Shown piece by piece: positions 487 through 48,652 of a DNA stretch of 64,000 bases. The notes under the pieces were generated by a model that had not been told where the DNA came from, did no database searches, and saw only the letters and a program-made list of their open reading frames with translations. Numbering within the stretch: position 1 is the first letter of the stretch; each line of letters starts with the position of its first letter. The translations under genes were made by a program, and so were the position numbers. The DNA lies in assembly GCA_023055425.1 (NCBI GenBank), contig JALGPY010000006.1, positions 71,766,127 to 71,830,126 on the forward strand, in the 5' to 3' direction. Origin of the DNA: Linanthus parryae (lineage: Eukaryota > Streptophyta > Magnoliopsida > Ericales > Polemoniaceae).

Positions 487-2764
487 ATGTCTGAGCACGG
501 AGAAGACGCGCCAACCGATGCAGGAACACCCACAGGACAGCAGCAACGCACCCCAGCACAGATGGCTCTTTACATTGAGGAGCTGATAGCAGCAGGCTTT
601 GCTGCCAGGAACAATCAGAGGACTTACAACAGGTCTGGAAGGGCGATAGTCGAAAACTTTGAAGTCCCAACCGGAGGACATCAACCAGCTATCGTGGTGC
701 CACCCATTACAGCAGAGCACTTCGATAAAATCATCCACCATCCAAACCGCCCAGACTCACTGTCCTTTCAATGGGAAAGCAGATGAAGATCCAAACGACT
801 TCCTTGGAAAGTTCGAAGACTACTGCAACAAGATTAAGTACAGAGGAGTTGAAGCGGATACGCTAAAGCTAATTCTATTCCCATACTGCTTGTTCGGAAC
901 AGCAAAAGACTGGCTGGAAGCAAGACCACCGAGGTCTACCACTACCTGGGGGGGATGTGTTACTGATTTTTTGGCAAAATTATACCCCGCATCCCGTGTT
1001 ATCAAGCTGCAGAGTGAGATCTTATCTTTCAAACAGAAGATGGGGGAAACGGTGGTAGACGCATGGGACAGGCTAATGAGACTCGTTAAAATATGCCCCA
1101 ATCACGGCTTCGGGGACGCAAAAATTCTGCAGGTATTCTACCATGCTCTTGAGAGGGAGAATGCTGACAGGATTGATAGGGAAGCTGGGGGTAACTTTCC
1201 ATACCATGTTGATAAAGATGGAGCCTACGAACTGATGAAACAATTAGCCAAACAGGATACTCGTCTGTTTGATGACCGCAGGCTCACAGCGCTAGCAGAA
1301 CCAGTGGCTGATGACAGGATTGACAATCTCACGAAAGTGGTACAAGACTTAGTTAAAAAGGTGTATACAGAGAAGAATCCCGTGGCATCAGTGGATGAAC
1401 CTGACCTTGACGCAGCAATTCTGGAGCTTCAGACCGAAGATGCCAATTATGTTCAGCAGCAGTGGGATCGAAGCCGCTACAGGCCTGGCACACGTGACCA
1501 TCCAGGGTTCCGTTATGGAAACCCTAATGCAGCAGTTTATGCGCCAGGATTCCAGCACAGGCCACAGGCACAACAGACAGCCCCAGCACAGCACGCTCCA
1601 GCAGCACCACCACAGCTAAATCTATCACAACAACATTTTGAGTCCTATATGGAGAAATTCAATAAGCAGTGGGAAGCTAGATTCTCGCAGATGGAGTCAT
1701 TAACTGCCGATGTAAGCCAAATGAAAATTGCTATCCGCAACTTGGAGGTACAAAATGGTCAGCTTGCACAGAACCAGGCAGAACGAGCCCCAGGGAATTT
1801 ACCATCAAATACAGTGAACAATCCACGCGCTCAAATCAATGCTATCACAACTCGGAGTGGAATTGCACTGCAGGATCCGCCGTATCCCAGTCATGCACGT
1901 GCAGAAAAGTCAAAGATCATTGAACACGAAGTGTTTGACAGGGAAGACAGCTCAACCGCTAACCCTCAGAAAAGGGGTTCGGTCGAACAGGAAGCAGAGC
2001 AGACTGATGAGGGTAATCCAGAAACAGTGCCAATCTCTAAGGAGGTACCTTACCCTCTGAAGACACGTAAGAGAGATGACAGCAAAGACTACGCCAGATT
2101 TCTGGAGGTATTCAAGCAATTACAGATAAACATACCTTTCGCCGAAGCACTTGCCAAAATGCCTACTTACGCTAAATTTCTCAAAGACATATTGTATGGG
2201 AGAAGGCGGATGAGCGACTTCGAAACGGTGAATCTGACGGCAGAAGCGAGCAGTTGTGTGAAAAACGATCTACCACTGAAGAAGAAAGACCCTGGCAGTT
2301 TTGTTATTCCAGTAACCCTGGGTAGTGAATACACAGGAAAAGCCTTATGCGACTTGGGTGCCAGCATCAACCTGATGCCACTAACCATCTTCAAAAGTCT
2401 GGGAGTCGGAGAACCACGGCCAACAAGAATTATGCTTCAAATGGCTGACAGATCTGTGAAACCTGCCTATGGAGTAATTGAAGATATCCTGGTAAAAGTT
2501 GGAGAGCTTATTTTTCCAGCAGATTTTGTGATACTGGATATGGAGGCCGGAGAGGTTCCGCTAATCTTGGGCAGACCCTTCCTAGCAACTGGTGAAGCCA
2601 TAATTAACTGCAAAAGTGGAGAGCTGTCCATGCAAATCAATGAAGAAAAAGTGAAATTCAACGTCTTCAAATCTCTCCAACTTCCTGATCATTATGGGCA
2701 TGAAAACTGTTTTGCAGTTGAAGTAATTGATGATCTGGAGAGTGAGGAGATGGAAAATTTATGA
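487..2764 (+). pseudogene. gag-pro: Athila gag-protease ORF with one frameshift
   Basis: The ATG at 487 opens a proline/glutamine-rich N-terminus in frame 1. Homology then moves to frame 2 at about 745-770, so one frameshift separates the N-terminus from the capsid-like region. The capsid-like part (about 775-1290) has the plant retrotransposon gag pattern with FLGKFEDYC and GTAKDWLEA. A proline/glutamine-rich linker and a coiled-coil-like stretch (about 1630-1790) follow. The aspartic protease lies at about 2290-2680, with active site DLGAS followed by INLMP and a later ILGRPFL. The frame ends in TGA at 2762-2764, and the pol frame continues without shift beyond it. Gag packages element RNA in the cytoplasm and protease matures the polyprotein. 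Confidence 0.87.
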
Positions 2765-5700
2765 AAGGAATTTGAGGACATGTATCCAGAGGAAACAGAG
2801 GAGCACCAGGCTAAGCAGATCATGGGAACAGAGAGCTGGGTCACTCTATATAAGGATGAAGGAGGCGAGCAGAAAATGACACTGGTCCCATCACTCCAGG
2901 AACCATCAGTCCTGGAATTGAAACAGTTGCCAGACCACCTCAGGTACGCTTTTATTGGTGAAAATAACACTCTGCCGGTAATTGTTTCGTCTCTTCTATC
3001 TCAAGAACAGGAACAAAAGCTGCTGGAAGTACTTCGAGAGCATAAAGAAGCTATCGGATGGACAATTGCGGACCTAAAGGGAATCAGTCCTGAGTACTGC
3101 ATGCACAAAATAAGAATTGAAGAAGGAAAAAAGCCAGTCATCCAACCTCAACGGAGACTAAACCCAATTATGAAAGACGTGGTACGTAAGGAGGTCATGA
3201 AGTGGCTAGAAGTAGGGATTATATACCCCATATCAGACAGCACCTGGGTTAGTCCTGTCCAGTGTGTACCAAAGAAAGGGGGTACTACAGTAGTACAGAA
3301 CGCTGATCAGGAGCAGATCGCCCAGCGCACTGTCACTGGCTGGCGAATCTGTATGGACTATCGGAAACTGAACGACGCAACACTGAAAGACCACTTTCCG
3401 CTGCCATTCATGGACCAGATGTTGGACAGATTAGCCCACCATGCTTATTACTGCTTTCTTGACGGGTACTCTGGCTACAACCAGATCTATATAAATCCAG
3501 AAGATCAAGAAAAAACGACGTTCACCTGCCCATACGGAACATTTGCCTTTAGACGAATGCCATTTGGATTATGCAATGCTCCAGCAACATTCCAAAGATG
3601 TATGATGGCCATTTTCTCTGACATGATAGAGAAAAATTTGGAAGTTTTCATGGACGATTTTTCGTTATTTGGGGACAGCTTTGATGATTGCTTATACCAT
3701 CTGGCCAGAGTTCTGATTCGATGCAGAAAAACTAACCTGGTACTCAACTGGGAAAAATGCCACTTCATGGTTACAGAAGGAATAGTGCTGGGACACAGGA
3801 TTTCCAGCAAAGGACTGGAAGTAGACAGAGCAAAGATAGAGGTGATCAAGCAGCTACCATATCCAACCACAGTGAAGGCAATCAAGAGTTTTTTGGGCCA
3901 TGCAGGATTTTACAGAAGGTTTATCAAAGATTTCTCCAAAGTTACAAAGCCACTATGTAATTTGTTGGGAAAAGATGTGCCCTTCATATTTGACGAAGCC
4001 TGCAAAGAAGCCTTTGACGTACTTAAAGACAGGCTGACAACTGCACCCATTATCACAACGCCATATTGGACCCTCCCATTCGAGCTGATGTGTGACGCCA
4101 GTGATTACGCAGTGGGCGCAGTGCTGGGACAGCGAAAAGATAAAGTGTGCAGTGTCATTTATTATGCCAGCAGGGTCCTGAATGAGGCACAGATTAATTA
4201 CGGGACTACAGAGAAGGAGCTGCTGGCAGTCGTTTTTGCCCTGGAAAAGTTCAGATCCTACCTGGTAGGTTCAAAAGTCATCATATTCACAGATCACAAT
4301 GCATTGAAATACTTACTGGAGAAAAAGGATGCAAAGCCAAGGCTGCTGCGTTGGATTCTGCTGATGCAGGAATTTGATGTCGAAATCAGGGATAAAAAGG
4401 GAGTTGAAAATGTGGTAGCTGATCATCTATCTCGCCTGGAAAACCCTACAGAAGAAGTGGTGCCAATTCAAGAAAATTTCCCAGATGAGCATATTATGAA
4501 GATCAAGACCAACAGACGCCCCTGGTATTACGCAATAGCCAATTATTTGGTCAATGGAGCACTCCCTGAAGACATCACCCCTTGGCAGAAAAATAAGTTT
4601 ATTTCAGAATGCAGGCACTATTTCTGGGACGATCCTTATCTATTCAAGCAAGGGGCAGATAATATTCTCTGTCGCTGCATCCCATGTCACGAGATTTTGG
4701 AGGTAATTCAGCACTGCCACTCAGCACAATGTGGGGGACACTTCAGCGGTCTGAGAACAGCCCACAAAGTGCTGCAGTCAGGATTTTTCTGGCCAACAGT
4801 CTTCAAGGATTGCCATGATTATGCGCAAAGTTGTGATCGCTGCCAACGTACAGGAAATATTTCCCAGCGAAATGAGATGCCTATGACACTTTGGCAGGAG
4901 GTTGAGCCTTTTGACGTTTGGGGTATTGATTTTATGGGTCCATTCCCTTCTTCTCTGGGAAATCTCTACATCTTACTGGCAGTAGACTACGTGTCAAAAT
5001 GGGTGGAAGCTATGGCCTGTCAGAAGAACGATGCGGCAGTCGTGGAACGATTCCTCAAACGCAACATGTTTACCAGATTCGGAACGCCAAGGGCCATGGT
5101 CAGTGATGAAGGTTCTCATTTTATCAATAAGGTCTTCGCCAAGGTTCTAAAGCAGTACGGGGTGTCTATCCATAAGGTGTCACTGCTTATCACCCTCAGG
5201 CAAACGGGCAAGCAGAGGTGTCCAACAGGGAGATAAAGAGCATACTGGAAAAAACTGTGAATCATGGACGTAAGGACTAGTCATTAAAGCTGGATGATGC
5301 GCTCTGGGCATACAGAACTGCTTACAAAACCCCGCTGGGAATGTCCCATACCAGCTGGTGTTTGGAAAAGCATGTCACTTACCAGTAGAATTGGAGCACA
5401 GAGCATACTGGGCAATCAAGCAGATGAATATGGATCACAGCTTATCTGGAAACAAACGGAAGATGGCACTCCTCGAACTAGAGGAATTCCGTAAAACCGC
5501 TTATGAGAGTGCCAAAATTTATAAAGAGAAGACGAAGAAGTGGCATGACAATCGCATTCTACCAAAGAAGATAGAAATTGGGCAGAAGGTTCTCCTTTAC
5601 AACTCAAGGATGAAATTCTATCCAGGGAAGCTGCGCTCAAGATGGTCTGGACCATTTATTGTGAAAGACATTACATCATGGGGAGTGGTGGAACTGGAAA

Positions 5701-5807
5701 ACCCAAGGGATAATACAGTTTTCAAGGTGAATGGGAACAGAGTCAAGCCATACAGAGATCCTCAGGAGATCATAGAGGTAGAGGCAGTCTACCTTGACCT
5801 TCGTTGA
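2765..5807 (+). pseudogene. pol: Athila pol: reverse transcriptase, RNase H, integrase (broken in integrase)
   Basis: The frame is the same as protease, separated only by the TGA at 2762. Reverse transcriptase spans about 3140-3700, with [12 protein letters not shown], the [11 protein letters not shown] block and the catalytic VFMDDF (YxDD equivalent). RNase H spans about 4080-4440 ([37 protein letters not shown]). Integrase starts near 4680 with the His/Cys zinc module ending CDRC, then GIDFMGPF and SDEGSHF. Near 5180-5190 the reading moves to frame 1, a TAG stands at 5278-5280, and near 5345 it moves to frame 0, which stays open to TGA at 5805. With two frameshifts and a stop in integrase, this copy cannot make full-length enzyme. 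Pol normally copies element RNA to DNA and inserts it into chromosomes. Confidence 0.9.
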
Positions 5808-5878: not shown

Positions 5879-5989
5879 AGATTAGTTGTTTTTATATATT
5901 TAATATTTATTATAAAATGTTCATAATTTGAGAGAAAAGGGACAAAGAGGGGTTTAATATTGAATTCAGTGTTTCAGGAATCATAGGCA

Positions 5990-6548
5990 TGCGTTCAAAC
6001 GCAGGAGATGTGCGTCTAAACGCACGCGTGCGTTCAAAAGCAAAAGGCGCGTTCAAACGCAGAACCGCCACCCAACCGCAGAAACCCTGAAAAATGGCTA
6101 ACACTTCTGCTTTCAAACGCAGATCACGTGCGTTCAAACGCAGATCATAAAATGAAGATTTCCAGCTAACACATGTGCGTTCAGACGCACGAGATGCGTT
6201 CAAACGCAAGAGAAAAAGAAGGACTGGAAAAGCCTAAGGACATGCGTTTAAACGCAGAAGGAGCATTTGAACGCAAGAACCAATCAGCAGAAATTCTAAA
6301 GAGAAGGCATGCGTCTAAACGCAGTGTGCGTTCAAACGCAACTCATCAGAGGAATTGCAGAAACAAGCAGTGCGTTTAAACGCAGATCATGTGCGTTCAA
6401 ACGCAGTTCACCAAACCCAGAATATTCAGAGAACATCAAGCAGTGCGTTCAAACGCACCGTGTGCGTTCAAACACAGATCAAGAAAGTTTCAAATTTCCA
6501 GAAAAAGTGAAGCACTGCGTTCAAACGCAGAAGCTGCGTTCAAACGCA
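5990..6548. repeat. Internal cluster of 18 palindromic 14-mers
   Basis: Copies of TGCGTT-NN-AACGCA or one-to-three-base variants start at 5990, 6011, 6029, 6048, 6108, 6129, 6176, 6195, 6243, 6262, 6310, 6327, 6371, 6392, 6444, 6463, 6516 and 6535. They often come in pairs 17-21 bp apart, and the spacers are not conserved. Those with TA at the centre are perfect palindromes. The same motif is clustered in the LTR at 10216-10513. The cluster lies between pol and the third ORF, upstream of a TATA-like box at 6634. Confidence 0.95.
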
Positions 6549-6633
6549 CAATCAAGCGGGATCAGAAAATTTTGAAAAAAATTTGAAAAAATTTGAATTT
6601 CAGGGGCCATTCTGCACTTTCTAAAAGTTCGCC

Positions 6634-6641
6634 TATATATA
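6634..6641 (+). promoter_or_regulatory. Candidate internal TATA box for the third ORF
   Basis: TATATATA lies 86 bp after the last palindromic motif (ends 6548) and 288 bp before the ATG of the third ORF. In the LTR the same motif cluster ends 84 bp before TATAAAAGG at 10597. The matching layout suggests an internal promoter; this is inference without expression data. A possible leader intron would run from GTAAGA near 6841 to a pyrimidine-rich AG near 6888. Confidence 0.5.
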
Positions 6642-6921
6642 CTGTACGGGTGAAAGTGACTCATTTTCACTCCAGTCAACCAGTTGCCCTAGCAGCCTCC
6701 AGAAGAAAGTCATCCGCCAGCAATCTCCGACTACCACCGCAGGAACACCAGAAAGTCAGAAACAGTGTGGGGGTGGTCACACACATCCGATCCAAACATC
6801 TACAGATCCGCTTCACAGAGCAGTTTCCAGATCTGTACCCGTAAGATTCACTCCGGGTAGCCAGGTTCTGTCTTTTCTCTCTCTTTGAAGATTTCCGTTT
6901 TTTTCTGCTTGAATTTTTGAA

Positions 6922-8607
6922 ATGGATGAGGACAGACCGTATATGCGGCCTGATAGGGCAATCGCACCCTTGAACATCATAGATTGCAGACTGCTTAGGG
7001 TTGACCATTTGTGTGACCATAGGTTTGTCAATATGGAGGCTCACCGTTTCTTCCTGCAAGACAAAAAGATTAGGTATGACATACCCGCTGAGAGAACTTT
7101 TCCTCGTGATAGAGTGGCTATGGGGGACGACCTGTTCAACTTTACTGGGCATGATCATTTTGGGGACTTGTTTACCGGCTTTACCAATCTGCAAGTCAGT
7201 TCTGTGCTGGCTAAGGAGATTTTCAGTAATCTCCAGCAGTGCATGAACAGCGAAGCCCAGTAAATTGACTGGATTTACTGCAGAAAGAGATGGATTCGGA
7301 TCACCCCAGAGAGTATTCGAGAGAGTTTGGATCTGGAATTAGTGTTAGACGATTGTCAGTTACAGGAAATGAGGCGTCATCCCTCCGAACACCTTAGCGA
7401 ACAAATCCTTCACACCTTGTGTGCGGGTGTACCAGGCGCTGCCTGGTACTACCCTCACCGGAGTCCTTCCTACCGGAAACTCCCTGCTACCTATTTGATT
7501 CGAGAGGCGAGATGGTGGACTGAGTGGATCAACAACCGGATTGTGAGCATTAAACACTTTACCCATATAGATTATAATGTTGCCCTTTTGGTGTACTGTC
7601 TGATGGCCAGAGAGCCTGTGAGACTCCCGGAGATTATCTGTGAGTTTTTTCGGGAACGAAGAGAGTCCCACAGTAAGAAGGGTTTAGGTCTTCTGGGGAT
7701 GTTGACTAAAATGGCACAGGATTATCAGGTGGCCATTCCTGGTGAGCTGAGAGATATCCGACCAGTGCAGGTACGCAAGTACCGCAAGATGAGATGTGCT
7801 TTGCATGAGGCTCTGCATGGGCCTCCAGAATATGTCGAAGTGGACGACGACGATGATGATGATGATGATGGTGCTCCGCCTCATGGTGGGGGTGATGGCA
7901 TGCCACCGCCACCTCCACCCGGTGAGGGGGGTTTTCCAGCCTTACCAGGTCCCCTTCGACTACCCCGATCTGCTAGTTCCAGTGAACACAGGCAGACCGA
8001 GCCCGACCTAGGGTAGTCTAGCAGAGGGGCCATGCGCAGTTCTTTTGGGCGCCTGGAGAGGACTGAGCATGAGGAATGGGTCAGGAAGAAAATTAAGGCC
8101 CAAGAAAAAATGCAGAACTACCTGGTAAGGACGGTAAAGAAAATGGCCAGGGGTCTTGGAAAGTTGTTCAAGACCCAGAAGCATATTTACCACGCTAACA
8201 CCGCTGCTTTGAGAGCTCATGAGGCGGCTCTCGCTGAAATTCAGAGCAATATGCGTGGTAAGAAATTTAACTTTCCGGACCACTATTCGAGTGATAATTG
8301 TCCAAGTTGGACAATGGAGGATAGTAGGCCATATGACAGCTTCTCTGGCCATGACCCCACACGGAGTCCGGAACACGCAGACAGTGTTGGTGACCCCGGC
8401 AAACCCGGTACCCAGTACCCACCCAGGCAGCATGTAGACCCAGGGGCCAGCAGTGCCCATCCCGGTGCCATCCATGCTGGTACCGCTGCCGCAGCTCGAC
8501 AGGCTGCGAGGAAACGCCCTAGAGGGCGAACCCCTGAACCATCTCCAGAGCCGACCGACCAGTCTACTCCGGAGAACACAGATTCAAGTTACAGGCCAGA
8601 TCAGTAG
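6922..8607 (+). pseudogene. Athila third ORF (env-position protein) with two in-frame stops
   Basis: Three open stretches (6922-7263, 7264-8016, 8017-8607) share one frame and are separated only by TAA at 7261 and TAG at 8014. Without them the ORF would span 562 codons including the final stop. The first two thirds look globular, rich in W, R and H, and resemble the plant-transposon-protein type domain found after pol in Athila-lineage elements. A run of nine Asp (about 7843-7869) and a His/Gly/Pro-rich linker follow, then a basic, possibly coiled-coil segment (8041-8250) and a Pro/Ser/Thr-rich tail. I see no signal peptide or convincing membrane segment, so calling it an envelope protein is not supported. 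Function unknown. Confidence 0.75.
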
Positions 8608-9908: not shown

Positions 9909-9917
9909 TGTGGGGGT
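9909..9917 (+). other. Polypurine tract region before the 3' LTR
   Basis: TGTGGGGGT lies immediately upstream of TGATAG, where the 3' LTR begins. It would prime plus-strand DNA synthesis. The same nonamer occurs at 6766 and 8633. Confidence 0.75.
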
Positions 9918-10215
9918 ATTTTGATAGCTTGAAAATGGGATTAGTTTGGGACATCTTTTTACCATTGGTTCTAACCCTGTGAGAGTTTAGTTTGCCCATT
10001 TTCGGCTTATTTTCCACTTGATACGAGGCAGAGACTTATAGGACATGATCATAAGATTTGAGTAATTTCATGTATAATTTTGTTTGTTGGATATGATCGC
10101 GGGTACATGTTATGATGTGCAGGTAACAGGTGCCGAGAAATGCATGAGATTGACTTGGATTTGGAGGCAGCGTATCAAGAAAGCTGAGCAGAAAAGTGCA
10201 GAAAAATTCAAGTTG

Positions 10216-10513
10216 TGCGTTCAAACGCAGGACCTGCGTTCAGACGCACAACCTGGCAGCAGAAAGGAAAAAGGCAGAAAAAAGGCTAAGGCTGTGCGTT
10301 CAGACGCACAGACCTGCGTTCAAACGCAGGTCTCGACTCCAGGATTGTGAAGACCAAGTTGTGCGTTCAAACGCAGGGGAGCTGCGTTCAGACGCACAAG
10401 TCCGAGAAGCCAGAAGAAAGAAGAGGAGAATTGTTTAAGGCCTGCGTTCAAACGCAGGAGATGTGCGTTCAGACGCACTGCGTTTAAACGCAGGGGGGCT
10501 GCGTTCGAACGCA
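10216..10513. repeat. LTR cluster of 10 palindromic 14-mers
   Basis: Copies start at 10216, 10235, 10295, 10315, 10362, 10383, 10443, 10464, 10479 and 10500. All fit TGCGTT-NN-(A/G)ACGCA. The copies with TA (10479) and CG (10500) at the centre are perfect palindromes. Several pairs are spaced 19-21 bp start to start, about two helical turns. They lie in U3 just upstream of the TATA box, where an enhancer would be expected. Confidence 0.95.
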
Positions 10514-10596
10514 CGTTTGGTTTCCAGAAGCTTCCAGGACGGGTTTTTGCAAGGGTAGAACAGGAATTTCGTGCATCAGTTTAGAGACTGTGGCAG

Positions 10597-10605
10597 TATA
10601 AAAGG
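10597..10605 (+). promoter_or_regulatory. LTR TATA box
   Basis: TATAAAAGG lies 84 bp after the last palindromic motif in U3. Transcription would be expected to begin about 30 bp downstream, near the 'cacagattagggttacac' stretch. Confidence 0.75.
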
Positions 10606-11602
10606 AGGTGTCCCAGCACAGATTAGGGTTACACACTCACACATACACAATCATCATCACAGAAGCCAGTATCAGAGCCGTCAGGATTGGAGCAGAGCAG
10701 GATTAGAGCAGTTTTTCAGTATTCAGCCATAAACTCGTTTGATCTTTTCTTTCTTTTATGAAACAGTGTTTTTCAATAATGCAAGCTAGCTAAACCTTTT
10801 TCCTAGGTTCTTGGTGAACCTAGGGTTTATGAATTCAGCAGACTGGTTTGTTTGATTCTCAGATCCATGACTAGTTGAAGTCTTAATACAGGATGGATTG
10901 TTTATTATCTTGTCTTTGATTTTATGTACATACATGAATGGCTTGATCACCCAGGAGTGTTATAGACAGGATCTGGTGCGCGAGAGTGGCCAGTGAGAGT
11001 TAGGAAGAAAAGACAGGATTTAATACCCTATCTTGATGGACCGAGAGGTGAAAAGAACCAGGGTGTTAGCCAGAAGCATTAGACTAACTGCTAGACGTTT
11101 AGGGGGAGACCGAGAGGAGAACCTGTAACCCTAGCAGACTTAGAGCAAACTTGCAGATTTAGGTGGACCGAGAGGACCCAAAATCTGCAGGAGAGTGACA
11201 CGTACATGAGACCGAGAGGAGATTGTACTATTGGTATGCTGGCATAAACAAAACTGCTGTGTGTTTCTGAAATTAAGTACACCAGGCAAGCTGGAAAGTA
11301 ACCCTAGGGGATCCTGGGACCTAGATTCTTAGAATTATCAATTTTTACAACTACCACAATTCCTGAAAATTACTTAACAGAAAAATAAAATAAGCTTTTC
11401 TAAATATTGCTTTATTTACTGCAAATTAGTTGAGTATAATCACATCCCAACCTTCCTCCTTTTTACGAGCTTTGCATCTAGTTCTATTTCTAATAAGTAA
11501 AACTTAAACTGTTCTCGAGGGTTCGACAATCAGAGTCATAAATACATACTCTATATTACTTGATCGTACACTTGCAAAAAAGCAGATAGGTTTACGCTGT
11601 CA

Positions 11603-21037: not shown

Positions 21038-24000
21038 TGAAAGAGTTGCTAGGGTTTCATAGAACAACCAGAGAAGAAGCAGCGAGAAGATGAAAGAAGA
21101 AAATGATTCATTGAAGACTGAACGGTTACAAGGAGGTATTTATAGGACAAATCCAACGGTAGGATTTGGCCGTACAAGATCTAACGGTAGGAATCATTTT
21201 AGGGTTTACAGAAACACACAAAAGACAAAAATGACCCTAACTAATGTAAAGAATTACAATAATAATTTAAACAAGAGTCGGGCTTCTATTTGGGCTTAGA
21301 CATTGCAGGCTTCTTTGTTGGGCTTTGATCTTGACAAGTGGGCTGAATATTTTGTGTGGCTTAATACGCCCCCTTAAACTGATGGGGGAGAAGAGCCCAT
21401 CAGTTTACTTCGAAAACCTTCAAATTGAGCTGCTGGCAAGGACTTCGTGAAAAGATCAGCTACTTGTTCTGCACTGGGAAGAAAAGAAACAGTAAGATGC
21501 TTAAGAAGAGCCTGTTCTCTAACATAATGATAATCGATTTCGATGTGTTTTGTTCTAGCGTGGAAGATAGGATTATAAGTAAGAGCTAATGCAGAAATGT
21601 TATCAGTGTGTAATAAAGGAGGATGAGGCAAGTAAAGATGTAAATCATGAAAGAGCTGCCTAAACCAAGAGGAGTCAGCAGCAACAGTAGCCAATGCCCG
21701 ATATTCAGCCTCGGTAGATGATCATGATATGGTGGGCTGTTTTTTTGCAGTCCAATGGACCGGATTAGGCCCAAGAAACACAACCAGCCCAGTGGTGCTG
21801 CGGCGATCAGTAGGATCGCCGGCCCAATCTGAGTCGGAATAAATTTGAAGAGGCAAGTGACCTTTTTTGTAATGAAGCCCAAAAGCTTTAGTGCCTTGAA
21901 GATAGCGAAGAACACGTTTTGCCCCACTTAAATGAACAGCAGTTGGGGCATGCATAAATAGACAAAGATGGTTAACGGCAAATGCAATATCAGGACGTGT
22001 AAATGTCAAATATTGTAATGCTCCCAACAGTTGGCGATAGGGAGTAAAATCAGGAAGAAGTTCTCCCTGGTTTAGATGATATTTGATGCCACCAGCAAGG
22101 GGGGTGGGACTGGGTTTACAATTAGACATGTTAAACCTTTTAAGAAGATCAAGAATATATTTTTCTTGATGAATGTAAATGCCAGTAGAGTTTTAAGTGA
22201 TTTTTAAACCAAGAAAATAAGTGAGTGGACCGAGGTTTGTCATCTGAAATTCTTGTCCTAATTGTGTTATGAGAGTCGAAATAAAGTGTGTGTCATTACC
22301 GGTAACAATTATATCGTCGGCGTAAAGTAATAACAGAGTTAATTTGTGATTGTCATGACGAATAAATAACAAACAATCGGCATAAGAAGCTGTAAATCCA
22401 AGAGAAGATAAAAAAAGGTAAAACGTTCAAACCAAGCCCGTGGGGCTTGTTTGAGTCCGTATATAGACTTGTTGAGAAGGCAAACATGATTTGGGTATTT
22501 TTTGTTTTGAAACCCAGTGGGTTGTTTCATATAAACTGTTTCGCGTAAAAAACCGTGAAGGAAAGCGTTTTTAACGTCTAACTGTTGTAAAGGCCACGAA
22601 AAAGTAGCAGAAAGAGCTAAGATGGTACGAACAGTGGCGTGTTTTACAACTGGGCTAAACGTTTCATCATAATCCAACCCAGGGGTTTGATGAAACCCCT
22701 TTGCTACTAATCGTGCTTTATAACGCGAAACAGTCCTATTTTGGTTGAATTTAGTACGAAATACCCATTTGTTGCCTATGACATTGACATTTGGTGGAGG
22801 AACCACCAAAGTCCAAGTCTGTTCCTCTATGAGGCTGTCAAACTCAGAGGCCATTGCTTGGCGCCAATGAGTATGTTTGACAGCTTCTGTGTAAGAAGTG
22901 GGATCAGTGTGTGTATTGTGACAAGTAGTAGCAGAAAAACCAACAGTAGTACGAGGAGAAGCATAATAAACAAGCTTCTTTTTGCTAATGCCTGATTTGC
23001 TGCGAGTTTGCATAGGGTGGCCTCCTTGAGTAGAAGGAGGAGGAGAGGGGTTAATCATCATTGGGTTACCTGAGTTTGCCAAGCCAGGGCTGGGAGAGGT
23101 GGAGTGTGCACCATGAGGGACATAAGGTCCGGTAGTATCTGTGGGGTGTGTAGTATCTGTACACTGAGATTGTGACACTGCCACACTTTCACCAGGTGGC
23201 TGCAAAGAGTCAGGACCCTCAGAAATGGGGGTGTCTGGTATGGGACCAGACATGAACCCAGATGGGAACTGGGTTATAATGGGAGGGTCAGTGCCTGAAA
23301 CAGAAGAAGAAGATGGAGAGTAAGTAGCAGTTGAATTGGCATAAGGGAAAGAAAATTCATCAAAAAGAACATCTCTGCTTATATAACATTTTTTTGAGAT
23401 AGGTTCATAGCATAAATAACCCTTATATCCAGAAGCATAACCCAAAAAGATGCATTTTTGAGTTTTTGGGTCTAATTTAGATAAAACATAATCAGTGAGT
23501 CTAGGAAAGCAAGCACAACCAAAGACCTTTAAGTGTTTATAATCAGGAACAGAATTAAATAAGAGTTCATATGGAGATTTGTTTGATGTGTTTTTACTAG
23601 GTAACCGATTGATTAAATAAACAGCAGCAGCCACAGCATGATACCAGAACAACTTAGGTAAAGAAGCATTATGAAGTAAAGTAATAGCAGTTTCCATTAT
23701 ATGTCTGTGTTTTCGTTCAGATATTCCATTTTGCTGAGGAGTGTAAGGACATGATTTGATGTGCATAATACCATTATCTTTGAGAAGGTTTTGAAAAACA
23801 AAAGCAGTATATTCACCTCCTCCATCAGAGTGAAGAATTTTAATTGAGTAACCTAGCAGTTTTTCAATAAACAGTTTAAATGTGGCAAATACAGAAGAAA
23901 CATCTGATTTTAATTTTAGAGGAAAGAGCCAAGTGAATCTGGAAAAGTCATCAACAAAGAGAACATAGTATTTAAAACCATCATAAGACAATGTAGAGGC

Positions 24001-26076
24001 AGGTCCCCATACATCACTGTGAAGCATGTGTAATGGTGTAGTAGAAGCAGAAATAGAAGCAGTGTAGGGTAAACAACTAATTTTGCCAGCCATACAAGAT
24101 TCACATAGAGAACCTAAAGTATTAGCAGATAATTTAACAGATGGTGATAAGCATTTAACACAATTTGATAAAACAGAAGCAGAGGGATGACCAAGTCTTG
24201 AATGCCATAAATGAGATTTGACTCTTTGACCCAAAAAGGCTTGAAGATTTGATGAAGCAGACACAGAAGATAAAGGGTAAAGCCCATTTTTACTGGGTCC
24301 CTGAAACAGAGTTTGACCCGAAGACTTGTCCTGAACACAAAAAGAGTCCTTATCAAAAATAAATCTGGCATTGTGATCGGTGCAAAACTTATGTACAGAC
24401 AACAAGTTAACAGATAAAGAGGGAACATGTAGTGTATTATGTAACGAAAAAGAATGATTAGAAGTTGAGAGATAGGTAGTACCAGAATGTTGAATAGGGA
24501 GAGAAGATCCGTTACCGACGGTGACTGTGTCAGAACCATAGTAAGGTTCAGCAAGAGATAGATTGCGAAAGTCTGCAGTCATGTGGTTTGATGCGCCTGT
24601 GTCAGTCAACCAGAGATCCGAGGACGGTGGTGGAGATGGCTGGGAAGAGGTGGAAGCAGCCATGGCAGACAACTGCTCCGGTGGTAGGCGGCCTTGATAA
24701 GCAAAATCCATACGGTGATAGCAATCGAGAGCAGAGTGATAATCATAGCCGCAGATTTGACAGTTAACCGGAGTTGAACGGCCACGACCCGATCCACCAC
24801 GCCCTCTGGATTCGGAGCGACCCGAACCGCGACCCGACCCGGAGGAAGACCCATTTTGATAACCCGAACCGGGTCCAGATCCGGATCCATATCCGTTGCC
24901 GTGGTTGGAAGTGTACCCGCCTGGCGATCCTGATCCAAACCCGGAATAAGAACGACCACCACGGGCATCTGAACGGCCTCCTCCGGCGGATCGGTTACCA
25001 AACCGGCCACCACGGTGGTTTTGGCCACTCCGACCACCGCGGTTATGATAGAAAGCGGTGGTAGTTGACAGATCTGGAGGTGGCGACTGTAAGGCATGCA
25101 TATGCTCTTCAGCTTTGAGGAGAACATGAAGTTCTTCAAAGGGGATCGGGGCGGAGTGAATACGCAGAGAAGATCTGAATAAATTGTATTCTGGGGGTAG
25201 CCCATTTAGAGCATAAAGAAGCAGATCTTCATCGGCGGTAACCACCCCAGCCACTGAAAGTTTGTCCCGAATCATTTTGAGGCGCTGCATGTACAGATCA
25301 ATGGAATCGGACCCCTTGCGAAGAGAGTGAAACTCAGCTTCGAGCGATAATATGTTGGATCGAGTAAGGGACGCATAGCGGCGCTCAAGAACTGACCAAG
25401 CCTCAGCAGATGTGGTAGATCCAATCACCAGAGTAAGCGATTCTTGAGTGAGAGTGGCGTTTAGTATGGTAAGAATGGCCTGATCTTGAAGGTGCCAGGC
25501 CGTATAAGCAGGATTTACAGTATGAGATCCATTGGAGGATGGAAGAACAGGGGAAGGACATGGAATCGTCCCATCTAAGTAACCGTATAGTGTATGGGTG
25601 CGAAAAATAGATGTGATTTGGTGTTTCCACAAAACAAAATTGGTGGAATCGAGTTTAAAGGAAGAAGATTATGTATGTTTGAGAGCAAATAAAGAGGCGG
25701 TGAAGCATGGGTAGTATTGGCGAGAGCCATGAAAGGGCTCTGATACCATGAAAGAGCTGCAGGGTTTCATAGAACAACCAGAGAAGAAGCAGCGAGAAGA
25801 TGAAAGAAGAAAATGATTCATTGAAGACTGAACGGTTACAAGGAGGTATTTATAGGACAAATCCAACGGTAGGATTTGGCCGTACAAGATCTAACGGTAG
25901 GAATCATTTTAGGGTTTACAGAAACACACAAAAGACAAAAATGACCCTAACTAATGTAAAGAATTACAATAATAATTTAAACAAGAGTCGGGCTTCTATT
26001 TGGGCTTAGACATTGCAGGCTTCTTTGTTGGGCTTTGATCTTGACAAGTGGGCTGAATATTTTGTGTGGCTTAATA
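21038..26076 (-). mobile_element. Nearly complete Ale-like Copia element, 5039 bp
   Basis: The LTRs are 21038-21366 and 25749-26076; they differ at about two places near their outer end and look otherwise identical, so the insertion is very recent. CCTTC duplications flank it (21033-21037, 26077-26081). On the minus strand the primer site (TGGTATCAGAGC, initiator Met tRNA) abuts the right LTR and a polypurine tract (GTTTAAGGGGGCG, complement of 21367-21379) abuts the left LTR. The LTR ends read TATTAAG...TTTCA, so TA stands in place of the usual TG in both copies. Confidence 0.93.
21374..25728 (-). pseudogene. gag-pol: Ale-like Copia gag-pol with few lesions
   Basis: The main open frame, 25632-22339, holds in order: gag (LYGYLDGTIP, YMQRLKMIRDKLS), a Gly/Arg/Ser-rich stretch, a Cys/His knuckle (CQICGYDYHSALDCYH), protease (LTDTGASNHM), the pre-integrase His/Cys motif (HSRLGHP, CESCMAGK), integrase (HSDVWGP, HSDGGGEY) and the RT start (KARLVAKGFHQ, DVKNAFLHGF). 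The remaining RT and RNase H lie in other frames: a frameshift near 22420, a stop near 22193 and a stop at about 21721 just before SSTEAEYRA. A further frameshift near 25660 separates the likely ATG at about 25728. With near-identical LTRs it was probably inserted already damaged, or was mobilised in trans. Confidence 0.9.
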
Positions 26077-34013: not shown

Positions 34014-36242
34014 TTACTTAAAATAGTTCCATGCTAAGTGTGCCAGAGGTCCAACAATGGCAGCATTAGTGTACGTCGTTGGCTCTGAGCGACCAGAGTC
34101 ACTTCGGTTATCTGGGAAGGAGTCGTTTTGAAAAGGACCGCCCACGATTGCCCCGACTAAGATGTTAGGATTAGGATCCGCCGTGTGGAAAAATTGATAA
34201 CCAGCGTCACAGCCTAAGGATTGAGGTTGGGATGCCTTGGATGGAAGAGAGGATCCTCTATGGTGAATCCTCTTTGGGAAGTTCTCCCCGAATCCAACCA
34301 TGTAGGACATGTTCAAAGGGTTCACTCCTAATATGTAATCCACCTGCAAATTTACCATGTACCAATATTACAAGATCCAACATCACAAGACATATTAAGT
34401 TCGAGGAATGAGTCAAATTAGGGGACTTTAGTTTCAAAATACCGAAATGGGCTGAGAAACCTCATATTAGATTTGTGACTTCTGTGATTTTTGGTCTGAC
34501 AACCTTAAAACCATATGAAAAACCTAAAGGTTTCCCAAACTCCCCCATTTTGGTGTTTTTTGCCCCAAACGTCCTTATTTTGAAGAATTAGTTTGCCTCG
34601 ACCCCCAAATAGTACTGAGTAATGAAAGTTGCCTGTTTCTTTGCAAGTTTTCTGAGGGTGTGTCGTTTGACAACTAAGTTTCCGCATTTGAATGTGTGTT
34701 TTGTGGAAGCCATGTACTTGCTGTAGGTTGATAGTAAGAAGGAGATGGATGTGACATACTGGAGATTGACTGCACTCAGTTTATACATCAAACCACCTGC
34801 AATTAGATGAACAAAATGCTTGAGTAACAACCAAATTTTAAATGTGACTTGAACTACGTTGAAGTAATTACCCGGTGTGTATTCGGTACTTGAAGAAGGA
34901 GAGTTTGGTAGGATTCGGCACATGAACTCTTCGGCTTGTTCCTTGAACAGCTCAAAATCCTCTTTGCTTTTTACAAAGAATTCCTGCTTGTTGAAGGGAT
35001 GTTTGGAGTGGTCAGAAGAAATTCTAGATAAAAAAACCGCTTGACTATGGCCATGCTCGTGGACTACGTCCTTAGATCTTTTACATTTGGGGAACAGAAA
35101 GAAATTATGTAAAACTGAAAATGTACTATTTGAAAAAGAATTAACAGAGTTTAGCAATTCAAAACAGAGCTTAAAAGTGACTTCCCATTCATAGGAAATT
35201 CTCTGTATGCTAATTACCCTTGCTAGGAGAACACGGGCACCGGCAAATTTGTTGTCCCAGCTGAAGAGATCGGTTGTGTCGTTACTTGCCACAGCTTTAA
35301 TCAAATGCAAATACCTAGCCTTTTTCGTGGCCCTGTACAGCCATGCCGCTACCCAGAGCAATTCATCCTGCCAAGTTAAAAGATGTAACAAGGTTTCCTA
35401 CAAGATGTAACAAGTTAAAAATGGAGTAATGATTACCTTGTATCCAGAGACTGAGCAATAAAATGGGCAAAGTTTGTCACTATAGGCACCTCTATATTTC
35501 TTTGCAAATTTCATCACCTTTTTTGCTGTCTTCAACAGCAATTTTGAGTATTTGGCATCATCTTTCTTGAAAACCATAGAGGCTGCCGCCAATGCAGCGG
35601 CAGTCTCCGCGGCTACATCAGACCCCGGGTTACTCGCCGATACCGAGTATACATTGCGTGGCGTATCCATGTCCTCAGGTCGTTCCCAGCACCTGTGATC
35701 AGCATTTGGTTCACCAACGCCCACGTAGAGCTTACCAGGCGTGGCCTTGGCACACTTTAACAGGTAGTCTGTGGCCCAACGGATAGCGGTCTGGGCGTTT
35801 TCTAACTCAGGTCCCAGCTTTTTGCGGTAATCTAACACACTCCATGAGAGCATGGTGGTGGTGAAAGCCATAGGGAAATTGAACTTTACGTTGTCTCCGG
35901 CATCATAGTAGCCTCCGGTTAGATCAACCTGATTGTATATACCAATTCCAAGTCAAATTGTTAGCGAAATTGTTAGTCAAATATCGGTTATATGTAATTA
36001 CATGTACTTACACCGGCTAGTGAACCGTCGGAGAGGCCCGAATCGGACCGCCAATCGATTTGCTGGTCGCCTCCGGTGGGGATCCTCCCTGACCTCTGAC
36101 CCTGAAAGAAGAGGATGGACTTTTCTAGGGCTTCTTTGTAGTTGGGTTTCCCTTGGACAGAAACATTGCTTAAAAACATGGAATCAACAGAGAAGAGGAA
36201 GAGGAATAAGGCAGTGCATAGAGAAGCTCGCATAATCGCCAT
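34014..36242 (-). CDS. GH9 endo-1,4-beta-glucanase, copy A (six exons, intact)
   Basis: Family 9 endoglucanase, secreted, cutting beta-1,4-glucan in the cell wall. Exons on the minus strand: 36242-36012, 35928-35437, 35367-35218, 34983-34872, 34796-34633, 34343-34014. They join in phase to 492 residues, the usual size of secreted class-B GH9 without a binding module. Residues 1-30 form a signal peptide. Catalytic motifs are present: YYDAGDN (D86, D89), [17 protein letters not shown], and the proton-donor Glu in [10 protein letters not shown] (E470). Intron 5 has a GC donor. Compared with copy C it lacks four residues before CPFYC and has Ser for the Tyr in the usual D-Y pair upstream of the catalytic Glu. 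A TATATATA at 36304-36311 lies about 60 bp upstream. Probably functional; activity may be altered. Confidence 0.9.
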
Positions 36243-43000: not shown

Positions 43001-43050
43001 GGCCATAATTGTATTAGGGTGAATCATTGTACTTGCTGGATAAAATCCAA

Positions 43051-44388
43051 ATGGAACAATCAAAAGGATTGAGAGTTGAGGTTGTTAGTAGAGAAACAAT
43101 TAAGCTATCTTCTCCTTCTCCCACTCCTGGTCATCAAGGAAGCTTTAAGTTCTCTTTGCTGGATCAGTTCAGTGCTCAAATTTATGTACCAACACTACTT
43201 TTCTACAAAGCTACCCAACCCAAAACAACCGAGTCTGAAATATCTCAGCGGCTGAAATCATCGCTCTCTGAAACATTAATTCGCTTCTACCCATTTGCCG
43301 GAAGGCTCAAAGACCCACTCACTATCAGTTGTAATTATGAGGGCGTCGATTATTTGGAAGCTCAAGTACTTAACTGTTCCCTCTCTCATGTCCTTGAGAA
43401 GCCCAACCCAACACAGCTGAATCTTCTTGTTCCTAACGAGTCCCCAGATCTGACAACACGCCCGCTGCTTCTTGTCCAAGTGAGCTTCTTTGAATGTGGT
43501 GGAATGGCCCTGGGAATGAAATTCCACCACAGCGTTGCCGATGCAGCCACATTCGCCACTTTCACTAACGAATGGGCAAATTCCGCTCTTGGAAATATCA
43601 AATCAGTGATACCAGATTTTAGCGCATCTAATCTTTTCCCCCCAACAAACTCATTACCACTCAGCCCAGAAATCCAGCCAAACCAGAACCTGCCTAGCAT
43701 AAGAACTGGTAGATTTGTATTTGGGTCATCTGAATTGGCAGCCTTGCAGGCTAAAGCCACTGGCACAAACAATCCCCAACCTACACGTTTCGAGGCAGTC
43801 TCTGCCTTTATATGGAAAATTGCGGCGCTATCTAAAAGAGAATGTAGAACCGAGTTAAAGAAATTATCACAACTCACCTGGTCAGTAAACCTGCGGTCGA
43901 AGCTACAACCACCTCTACCTGAGCATTGTTTTGGGAATTTGGTAGGACAGGCAGTGCATGAAGGTGAGGTTGACGGAGAAGACATACCTAGTTTAGCTGG
44001 TCACATCAGACGTGGTACGATAGATATGTGCAACAACTTCACTCAGACACTTAAAGGGGACACAAGTGTTCCGGGGATTTTCGAGATACTGATGAATGCA
44101 AGAAACATATTCGAGAGAGCGATTGCTGGAACTGTAGAGTGGTGCTTCATAACTAGTTGGTGTAAGTTACCATTCTATGAAGCTGATTTTGGATGGGGAA
44201 AGCCATTGTGGGTGACTAATGGAGGTTTGCATCAGTTCCCAAACGTGATTATGCTGATGGATACAAAAGATGGGCATGGAATAGAAGCATGGATGTGTTT
44301 AACGGAAGCAGAGATGAGTGCCTTTGAAAGTAACCAGGAGCTGAAGAAGTATGCATCTTTTAACCCAAGTATTTCCCAGTATGAATGA
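43051..44388 (+). CDS. BAHD acyltransferase, intact single-exon gene
   Basis: Encodes 445 residues, normal for the family. BAHD enzymes transfer an acyl group from acyl-CoA to an alcohol or amine of a plant metabolite in the cytosol. The catalytic HxxxD is HSVAD at residues 160-164 and the structural DFGWG is at 379-383. The N-terminus (VEVVSRETIKLSSPSPTP, then FSLLDQ) and single exon place it with the vinorine-synthase-like clade (clade III), whose members mostly acetylate alkaloids, volatiles or terpenes; the substrate cannot be read from the sequence. The start is the ATG at 43051; the frame is open for a few codons upstream but without another ATG. A TATA-like box lies 51 bp upstream. A pseudogene fragment of the same family lies at 15896-16171. 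Confidence 0.94.
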   Translation: MEQSKGLRVEVVSRETIKLSSPSPTPGHQGSFKFSLLDQFSAQIYVPTLLFYKATQPKTTESEISQRLKSSLSETLIRFYPFAGRLKDPLTISCNYEGVDYLEAQVLNCSLSHVLEKPNPTQLNLLVPNESPDLTTRPLLLVQVSFFECGGMALGMKFHHSVADAATFATFTNEWANSALGNIKSVIPDFSASNLFPPTNSLPLSPEIQPNQNLPSIRTGRFVFGSSELAALQAKATGTNNPQPTRFEAVSAFIWKIAALSKRECRTELKKLSQLTWSVNLRSKLQPPLPEHCFGNLVGQAVHEGEVDGEDIPSLAGHIRRGTIDMCNNFTQTLKGDTSVPGIFEILMNARNIFERAIAGTVEWCFITSWCKLPFYEADFGWGKPLWVTNGGLHQFPNVIMLMDTKDGHGIEAWMCLTEAEMSAFESNQELKKYASFNPSISQYE

Positions 44389-46509: not shown

Positions 46510-47299
46510 ATGTCGACAGCCAAGCAAACAGCTTCTCCTCCCCAAGCACATCGAGGCAATAGTAATCGTCGCCATTCTGGCCGAAAAGGTCGGGTACACA
46601 TTCAACAGTATCTTGCACCTCCTGCCTCTTCTCACGGCAACTGGGTGTGGTGTCCTCCCCCATCGTCCCTGACTGTTCAGTCGGGCCCATATCCCCCGAC
46701 ACCGGGTTGGACACAGTCAGGACCCTCTCAGCCTACAGTTACGTCAGGTATTCTTGGTCCAGGACCTTCTCAGCAAGGCCTCACAGCCGCTTCTGCCTAC
46801 CCGACTGCTATTGATTTGGGATCTCAGTTCTCTGGCATGACACTCAACGTTCCGGATCAGACTTGGTATCTTGATTCCGGCGCATTTGCTCATCTCACTC
46901 CGCAGTCAGGTATACTCTCCTCTCTCTCGTCATCTTGTTCTTTTCCTAACATACTTGTGGGAAACGGCTCTAGCATTCCAGTGAAAGGATCCGGCAATCA
47001 CACCCTTACCACCAACTCCCGTTCCCTTCACCTTAGAAATGCCTTACTCACCCCAAACGTTATCAAAAACCTAGTTTCTGTTCGTCAATTCACTACTGAA
47101 AACAATGTCTCCGTTGAGTTTGATCCTTTTGGTTTTTCTGTAAAGGACCTACGATGGGGAGCTCTTTTACAGAGGAGCAACAGTTCGGGTGATCTCTATT
47201 CATTCCATTCTGTCCCACCACCGTCGTCTGCTGTCTCTTTTGCTGCTCTTCCTGCTTCCGTTTGGCACAACTGCCTTGGTCATCCCTGGCGTCTAGTTT
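46510..47299 (+). pseudogene. Short-LTR Copia: gag end, protease, pre-integrase
   Basis: The frame 46510-47301 holds a Pro/Ser/Gln-rich gag tail, protease with TWYLDSGAFAHLT (D-S-G-A catalytic site) and WHNCLGHP at its end. The sequence from 45782 to about 46500 does not show the normal gag core, so most of gag is missing or destroyed. Confidence 0.82.
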
Positions 47300-48652
47300 A
47301 AGATTCGCCTCGTAATAGTCATTTCATTTCTTGTAGTAGGCATAATTCAGAATCTCTTTGTCATGCTTGTCAAATTAGTAAACACGTGCGTTTGCCTTTT
47401 TTACCATCTACTTCTTCTACTTCTAGTCCATTTGACATTGTTCACAGTGATTTATGGACATCTCCGGTCTTAAGCAAATCGCACTACAAATACTACCTAC
47501 TACTATTAGAATGACTATACCCATTTTCTCTGGATTTTCCCACTTAAACAGAAAAACGAAGCGATATCAAAATTTAAACAATTCACTACCTTCGTACAAA
47601 CTCAATTTGAGCGACCCATCAAAACTTTTCAATGTGACCTTGGTGGAGAATTCGATAATGGCTCTTTTCACTCTCACGCCATTAATCATGGACTTGTCTT
47701 CCGGTTTGCGTGTCCCTAGACGTCATCTCAAAATGGCAAAGCTGAACGCATGATTCGTCGAATCAATGACACCAGTCGTACCCTCCTAGCTCAGGCCTCC
47801 CTTCCAGCCTCTTTCTGGGTTGAGTCTCTTCTGGCTGCTGTCTACCTTAATAACATTCTTCCCACCAAAGTCCTTGGCAACAATATTCCTACTGTAGCCC
47901 TCTACCATCGCTCACCATCCTATGAGCATCTCCGCACGTTCGGATGCTTGTGTTACCCGAACCTCTCTGCCACCTCACCTCACAAGCTTGCACCACACTC
48001 TGTTCGATGTGTCTTTCTGGGGTACCCTCTTAATCAACGTGGGTACAGGTGTCTAGACTTGAGTACTGGTCGGGTTCACACTTCTCGTCATGTCACCTTT
48101 GATGAGACAGTGTTTCCTTTCTCCACTTCTGGGTCTGTGTCTCCCTCTGTCCACAGGACGTCTGATCCCGATGACAGTCTTCCGTCTCCCCTTTTCACTC
48201 ATCGTGCTCATAACCCTGTGACACACACACCCTCACCCACCCCTCCTAGGGCATCCACATCACCACCCGCACCTACTAGGGCACCCACACAGCTTTCCCC
48301 GTCCAGGACCCTTGTGGAACCTTTTCCTCAACACTACGCTCGTCGGTCTGTGTCCACTCGCCCTCCTCCTGTACCCTCTGTGCCTGTGTTACCAGACCCC
48401 CCTAAGTCACCCACACCGAGCCCAGTGGCCACTTCTCCTCCCCATCTCTCTCCTCAGATGACCGCTAGATCCATGCATGGCATAGTCAAACCAGTCACCC
48501 GTCTCACTTTAGCGGCCCAGCCACCAGACCCCATCTCGCCCCTTCCCAAATCCTCCATCCTCGCCTTGTCGGATCCTCACTGGAAAGCGGCCATGGATGA
48601 TGAGTTTGGAGAACCACACTTGGGATCTGGTTCCTCGCCCGACAGGGGCTAA
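47300..48652 (+). pseudogene. Short-LTR Copia integrase, frameshifted
   Basis: After a stop at 47299-47301 integrase text continues in changing frames (CHACQISKH near 47360, FDIVHSDLW near 47430). The frame 47750-48652 carries the C-terminal part (LPASFWVESLLAAVYLNN, YEHLRTFGCLCYP, VFLGYPLNQRGYRC) and a Pro/Ser/Thr-rich linker. Confidence 0.82.

Follow-up and report, generated by a model that had tools for sequence, protein, structure and literature searches.

Why would a retrotransposon carry, directly before the gene that follows pol, the same array of short palindromes that stands in its LTR, and why would both arrays end at nearly the same distance from a TATA box? This question is raised by an element in a 64,000-nt stretch of the Linanthus parryae genome (assembly GCA_023055425.1, contig JALGPY010000006.1, positions 71,766,127 to 71,830,126; hereafter the window), for which an earlier note had proposed a second, LTR-like promoter upstream of the third ORF.

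All features of the element described below lie on the forward strand of the window unless stated otherwise. The 5′ LTR begins upstream of the window (it is covered in locus L040), and its 3′ end, a repeat of 11347-11602, occupies positions 1-256. Next to it, TGGCGCCGTTGCCGGGGA can be read directly at 263-280, and we take it to be a primer-binding site of the tRNA-Asp type. The primer-binding sites of Diaspora and Calypso are of the tRNA-Asp type (PMC1142308). A gag-protease ORF (659-2764; Pfam Retrotrans_gag and Asp_protease_2) is followed by pol, with reverse transcriptase, RNase H and integrase (2780-5236; RVT_1, RT_RNaseH, Integrase_H2C2 and rve), which places gag, protease, RT, RNase H and integrase in gypsy order. 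According to the ORF list, the C-terminal part of pol continues in another frame at 5358-5807. The third ORF (ORF3) spans 6922-8607 as several ORFs and is of the Transposase_32 type, the Pfam match (PF20167; E 9.1e-12, 45.6 bits for a cut-off of 45) falling on its middle piece only. A polypurine tract (9909-9919) adjoins the 3′ LTR, which is 1681 bp long (9922-11602, TGATAG...CTGTCA). Based on the domain order and on the sense third ORF with Transposase_32 between pol and the 3′ LTR, the element is, on this sequence evidence, an Athila-type Ty3/gypsy retrotransposon. The target-site duplication GTGAT flanks it on both sides and the LTRs differ at 21 of 1681 sites (K2P 0.0126), which indicates a fairly young, complete insertion; the pol frame change after 5236 and two in-frame stops in ORF3 (7261 and 8014) mean that the window copy is broken.

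Several other features of the window were recorded alongside. The core of the polypurine tract, TGTGGGGG at 9909, recurs before ORF3 (6766) and just after it (8633), with TGTGGGGGTGG at both places; the copy at 6766 is found in five of the five aligned rows displayed, and locus L005, which represents a second subfamily, also has three such sites. Multiple copies of the polypurine tract are known from Sireviruses (PMC2829016). Rfam at gathering thresholds gave no match on the window besides one snoRNA in gag, an antisense snoR71 match (1004-1110, reverse strand) that scored exactly at the gathering value of 40 bits and is probably due to chance. Pfam also identified two Ty1/copia elements (22339-25632, reverse strand; 46510-48652, forward strand, split into several ORFs) and pieces of host genes, either glycosyl hydrolase family 9 (34588-35391 and 55407-56267, both on the reverse strand) or, at 43027-44388 on the forward strand, a PF02458 transferase. 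The two places with glycosyl hydrolase family 9 pieces are about 20 kb apart and are perhaps parts of one gene.

The palindrome TGCGTTNNAACGCA had been reported 18 times between pol and ORF3 and 10 times in U3, and both counts hold when up to two mismatches are allowed. The internal array (5990-6548) contains 10 exact copies, 7 with one mismatch and 1 with two, and the U3 array (10216-10513) 6 exact copies and 4 with one mismatch; the window has two more matches with two mismatches, both outside the arrays. Over the whole window, 47 matches with at most three mismatches were counted versus 19.07 ± 3.83 in shuffled sequences, and none of 100 shuffles reached 47. The centre of the motif varies (TCAA, TCAG, TTAA, CTAA, TTGA or TCGA) and, in both the internal and the LTR set, T5 and A10 each reach a constancy of 0.99 or more, so that the real site looks like TGCGT-N4-ACGCA. 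Both arrays are rich in CpG, with observed/expected ratios of 1.34 and 1.09 versus 0.41-0.66 in the other stretches measured.

Most of the motifs are paired. Internal motifs are mostly paired 17-21 bp apart and, from 6108 on, the starts of the pairs follow each other at 61-73 bp. In 29 internal loci (L010-L038), the short steps measured 19 bp in 158 cases, 21 bp in 86, 18 bp in 26 and 14 bp in one, while the 29 LTR loci (L040-L068, L040 being the 5′ LTR of the window element) gave steps of 21 bp (87), 20 bp (31), 15 bp (27), 19 bp (20), 16 bp (1) and 22 bp (1). At the end of the LTR array (10443-10513), two pairs separated by a 15-bp step make up a quartet, an arrangement also seen in L005 and in the LTR locus L008; the internal array of L005 has a similar 15-bp step near its start.

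The statement that the sequences flanking the motifs differ between the two regions is true in the main, with one reservation. With motifs masked, 66 of 200 shuffles scored as high as the real sequences for the full regions, 22 of 200 for the arrays and 42 of 200 for the downstream parts. The stretches just before the motif pairs (-26 to -4), by contrast, show a weak likeness between the two arrays: 0.374 versus 0.317 after shuffling in the window copy (1 of 500 shuffles as high) and 0.424 versus 0.313 in L005 (0 of 500), the shuffles here preserving letters and not dinucleotides. Most motif pairs of both arrays are preceded by AAG at -6 to -4.

To what extent, then, do the two arrays stand equally far from a TATA box? 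Counted base to base, the 86 and 84 bp given by the earlier note correspond to 85 and 83 intervening bases, and the near equality stands. The last internal motif ends at 6548 and the TATA box TATATATA occupies 6634-6641, leaving a spacer of 85 nt (6549-6633); the last LTR motif ends at 10513 and TATAAAAGG occupies 10597-10605, with 83 bases between. At the element's own rate of TATAWAW, such a box begins no more than 2 nt from any one given spacing with a probability of about 0.007, a value that applies to a spacing spotted post hoc. Genome-wide, the 1.51-Gb assembly contains 26,642 exact TGCGTTYRAACGCA sites and 3 of the mirrored control. A TATAWAW located 81-87 nt from an exact motif was matched 1186 + 1465 times, a count that includes overlapping matches and a reverse-strand, AT-rich class 5′ of the internal array, and 0 times with the mirrored control. 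Among the matches listed (about 100 places, all on contig C1), 20 LTR/internal pairs 3.8-4.2 kb apart could be recognized by eye; one copy, at C1:25069632, is an exception, with only about 68 nt from the last motif to the TATA box in the displayed match.

Conservation was then assessed in other copies, all comparisons being made within this one genome. A search with the internal core and leader returned 884 first-look candidates and a search with the LTR core 1485; for each, 40 were scored and the best 30 read, which gives close relatives of the window copy more than their share. The loci read include the window copy itself (L009, L039 and L040), and 16 of the 30 LTR loci make up 8 pairs that we took, from distances of 11.3-12.5 kb, as the ends of single elements. 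All 30 internal loci carry an array of 14-18 motifs. The box TATATATA is intact in 27 of them and mutated in place in L021, L036 and L038; the gap is 81-85 nt in 26 of these 27 and 94 nt in the remaining one. The 30 LTR loci all have 8-10 motifs and TATAAAAGG, with a gap of 82-84 nt in 29 and 94 nt in one (the two 94-nt exceptions are L033 and L051). A block of 16 columns at the internal TATA box shows a mean pairwise identity of 0.976 over 31 rows. The prediction that related copies would keep the motifs and a spacing of about 85 nt was thus borne out in the internal and LTR loci examined.

Most copies share this spacing by descent. Four further loci were picked from motif places and not by spacing, L005 because of its two clusters about 4 kb apart. 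In L005, 18 of 18 internal and 13 of 14 LTR motifs are exact, and the gaps are 83 and 84 nt; L008 has 12 motifs and a gap of 84 nt. The spacing is kept as well in a divergent LTR family, represented by L006 and L007, where 11 and 12 motifs end 85 nt before CAGTATATAAAG; the U3 of L006 upstream of the array is only about 50% identical. The 81-87 spacing pattern itself served to select two additional loci, L069 (no blastn match to the window LTR core at E 1e-3; 10 motifs, gap 84) and L070 (an internal variant; 19 motifs, gap 84), which are therefore uninformative on spacing by themselves. Searches of other collections were also performed. Viral contigs yielded no relative with the motif dyad or the RT, and the 600 stretches in them that matched the peptide pattern of an ORF3 piece gave no confirmed hit. 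None of the contigs in a collection of genome contigs had the motif dyad, and 9 pattern matches to pol there gave no confirmed one. With the ORF3 piece, 460 candidates from a large protein collection included none at E 1e-3, and solved structures gave no match; tblastn of the RT on plasmids retrieved three distant RT records (24.6-39.9% identity).

Such conservation may reflect selection or a low mutability of the motifs. The window copy and L005 are separated by a dS of 0.39-0.76, and their internal arrays, with 18 copies each, allow a clean comparison: 205 of 215 positions in the motif arms are identical versus 204 of 300 in the linkers (Fisher P ~1e-15). Identity is 0.52 in the short linkers and 0.71 in the long ones, 0.82 in the leader and 0.86 at the start of ORF3. 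In the LTR array, 100 of 100 outer arm positions are identical, though the units do not all correspond; since the copy number is 10 versus 14, the linker identity of 0.58-0.59 found there partly compares non-matching units. The 5′ and 3′ LTRs of one element are identical at insertion, so that differences between them reflect later mutation. In the eight inferred LTR pairs, motif sites (copies with at most two mismatches only) differ at 19 of 1088 positions (1.75%) and other sites at 144 of 8089 (1.78%). The motifs therefore differ as much as the rest of the LTR, which argues for selection during replication and not for low mutability. From these alignments, the motifs appear to be kept only along replicating lineages and to undergo the same mutation as everything else once inserted. 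We take the conservation of the arms, together with the unreduced mutation in LTR pairs, as the strongest evidence that the motifs serve the element. The protein downstream is also maintained: when the window copy is compared with L005, the pol pieces give dN/dS ratios of 0.03-0.04 and the three pieces of ORF3 ratios of 0.07, 0.10 and 0.09, by which the ORF3 protein is under purifying selection.

A CpG-rich array of paired palindromes ending about 84 nt before a TATA box is what an upstream activating sequence looks like. On the sequence features assembled here, the arrays probably represent one cis-regulatory module that serves two promoters of the element, that of the LTR and an internal one for ORF3 in sense orientation; in each, the palindromes would form the part that activates from upstream. 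A dimeric factor would bind each TGCGT-N4-ACGCA, the sites being paired mostly 19 to 21 bp apart, or about two helical turns, and the array would activate a core promoter with a TATA box from about 84 nt upstream. The LTR promoter would drive the genomic gag-pol RNA, and the internal promoter, located between pol and ORF3, would give an mRNA of its own, in sense orientation, with a 5′ end near 6663 and with ORF3 on it. The steps that we infer are the binding of one factor to both arrays, the use of the internal TATA box for transcription, and the translation of ORF3 from the resulting RNA.

The predicted start at 6663 is a pyrimidine-purine step that follows the TATA box by 29 nt, placed by the rule that relates the position of a start to its TATA box. 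Downstream of it, the leader of ORF3 (6664-6921) contains no ATG and includes the polypurine-like TGTGGGGGTGG at 6766. The ORF3 start codon lies 288 nt after the internal TATA box in the window and about 313 nt after it in most loci read, and in 26 of 29 scored leaders no other ATG lies between the predicted start and the ORF3 start codon (30 were tried, one of which could not be placed). A leader free of ATG is weakly unusual by itself, as 17.6% of shuffles lack an ATG for the window copy and 10.3% for L005. The zone around the predicted start is conserved no better than the leader (0.829 versus 0.824 when the window copy is set against L005). The leader also contains, shortly after the TATA box, a possible 3′ splice site, an AG at 6691-6692 preceded by a pyrimidine-rich stretch, and the AG is conserved in 31 of 31 rows; a spliced RNA could thus also deliver ORF3. 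The window copy misses about 28 nt of the pyrimidine-rich stretch: this CT-rich part of the leader is absent at 6684 and present in the four other copies displayed.

The main rival to the internal promoter is built on this splice site. ORF3 would be translated from a spliced RNA started in the LTR. The internal array would then serve as enhancer either of the LTR promoter or of the spliced RNA, with no use made of the internal TATA box. Precedents exist, since splicing has been reported for the env-like gene of BAGY-2 (PMC7264820) and acceptors have been predicted for BAGY-2 and Athila (PMC2829016), and the AG here is conserved and follows a pyrimidine-rich stretch. However, AG dinucleotides are common in the leader, a site near 6890 that looks stronger by eye is not kept in L005, and this explanation does not account for TATATATA at an LTR-like spacing that is also kept in the second subfamily. 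We regard it as rather unlikely, though it deserves the most attention among the alternatives. A different role for the palindromes would be as RNA hairpins, involved in packaging, RNA stability or translation, or as a source of host small RNAs, as in the LTRs of maize Sireviruses. Compared with 60 dinucleotide shuffles, both arrays fold far better (for the window copy z is -7.6 and -7.9, for L005 -9.7 and -11.0), and the leader does not (z 0.7); Sirevirus palindromes, for their part, show an enrichment of small RNAs (PMC10760457, PMC5311732). Every palindrome array folds well, though, and the z-score consequently does not discriminate between an RNA and a promoter function. Hairpins would leave the fixed distance to the TATA box unexplained, and selection within the element would not favour a structure whose sole effect is to attract silencing. 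Moreover, the U3 array precedes the LTR TATA box and is thus absent from the 5′ end of the genomic RNA, being present only in its 3′ part. A hairpin function seems doubtful to us on these grounds.

A further alternative denies the arrays any function. Slippage during replication and template switching could have multiplied minisatellites that do nothing for the element; Retand elements often contain tandem repeats in the region from pol to the 3′ LTR (PMC11963269), the units show weak similarity to each other and their copy number varies. Slippage, however, would homogenize the linkers along with the motifs, whereas the linkers have diverged about as far as synonymous sites and the motif arms have not, with a mutation rate of the motifs that is not lower in paired LTRs. 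This explanation is already disfavoured, and we consider it very improbable. Equally hard to credit is an internal array that works as a two-way promoter, also or mainly directing antisense transcription into pol. A reverse-strand TATAWAW does lie before the internal array, 91-93 nt away in the window copy and 82-84 nt away in L005, and this class is part of the genome-wide count. But the stretch that contains these boxes (5893-5916) is AT-rich, their distance from the first motif ranges from 73 to 108 nt, and they are absent in 4 of 31 rows, a picture of sequences under no constraint.

If the two arrays belong to an LTR promoter and an internal promoter, what protein might bind them? The half-site TGCGT fits the T[G/A]CGT rule for NAC factors. 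NAC palindromes combine this half-site with a CGT-N7-8-ACG spacing (PMC4081100), and the N4 spacing found here led us to reject NAC as the binding factor. The VOZ site is GCGT-N7-ACGC (PMC6321167); VOZ was rejected likewise, the element having GCGT-N4-ACGC. Neither the motif nor its N4 form, as typed, was found in the literature searched. As a lead only, the ORF3 protein itself is a candidate binder of the palindrome. A sunflower Athila ORF with a Transposase_32 domain is predicted to be nuclear (PMC11728184), and the last ORF3 piece in the window has a basic patch, RKRPRGR. An AlphaFold model of the middle piece, obtained from the single sequence, reached a pLDDT of 56.3. In an extended and unlikely version of this idea, the palindrome would be a private response element: a nuclear ORF3 product would bind it and activate the genomic promoter and its own, or shield them from silencing, which would make ORF3 a self-reinforcing regulator and not an envelope protein. 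VANDAL DNA transposons, with their VANC anti-silencing proteins, have arrays of short motifs in their non-coding parts. They differ from the present element in being DNA transposons, and in both the bound motif and the protein.

The closest known arrangement is that of the Sireviruses, a Ty1/copia genus, in which Bousios et al. (2010) described high-copy palindromic RM boxes in the LTR shortly upstream of the TATA box (PMC2829016). In the same study, boxes also precede ENV in the nine tabled members with both RMs and ENV, CpG islands cover the boxes in the LTR and upstream of ENV, and the authors suggested an internal ENV promoter, which they could not identify. On average, the island extends about 45 bp beyond the last box and the TATA box follows about 37 bp after the island; by our own arithmetic, these averages sum to about 82 bp, strikingly near the 83-85 nt measured here (PMC2829016). 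The element resembles these Sireviruses in having CpG-rich palindrome arrays both before the LTR TATA box and before the third gene. It differs in superfamily, being Ty3/gypsy with an Athila-type ORF3, and in motif, with the arms TGCGT and ACGCA instead of the CGG-CCG core, which it lacks. Unlike in Sireviruses, a TATA box is visible before the third ORF at an LTR-like distance, and the pairs are 19-21 bp apart. Membership of the Sireviruses was considered and rejected: the domain order is not that of Ty1/copia, the RT being of the RVT_1 type and the integrase following RT and RNase H. The present element would work like a Sirevirus without being one: it shows their layout in a different superfamily, built from a different palindrome and with a visible TATA box ahead of the third gene. 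In maize Sireviruses, the palindrome clusters of the LTR are hot spots of small RNAs (PMC10760457, PMC5311732).

The nearer relatives by classification offer a different set of likenesses. Transposase_32 is shared with sunflower Athila 14 (PMC11728184), and for the third ORFs of Athila, Calypso and BAGY-2, expression by splicing has been reported or predicted (PMC2829016, PMC7264820). We found no description of an internal promoter with a palindrome array for Athila in the literature searched, outside of which lie the primary Athila4/Calypso and BAGY-2 papers. With Athila, Calypso and BAGY-2, the element has in common the gag-pol order, a sense third ORF between pol and the 3′ LTR, and probably the type of primer-binding site. 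Grande, from the Tat/Retand lineage, has an accessory gene between pol and the 3′ LTR with its own promoter (PMC7264820); that gene is antisense, while ORF3 is in sense and one motif array is common to both promoters.

These results bear on the expression and role of the third gene in plant env-class retrotransposons, for which splicing has been reported or predicted and internal promoters have been suspected (PMC2829016). The element offers a concrete and testable internal promoter, with a predicted start, a 14-bp site, a spacing rule and a signal of selection separated from the mutation rate. Its 26,642 exact motif sites constitute a large and dispersed pool of putative binding sites in the genome of L. 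parryae. That a Ty1/copia genus and a Ty3/gypsy lineage share a layout of this kind would suggest convergent evolution of co-regulated promoters for the LTR and the third gene.
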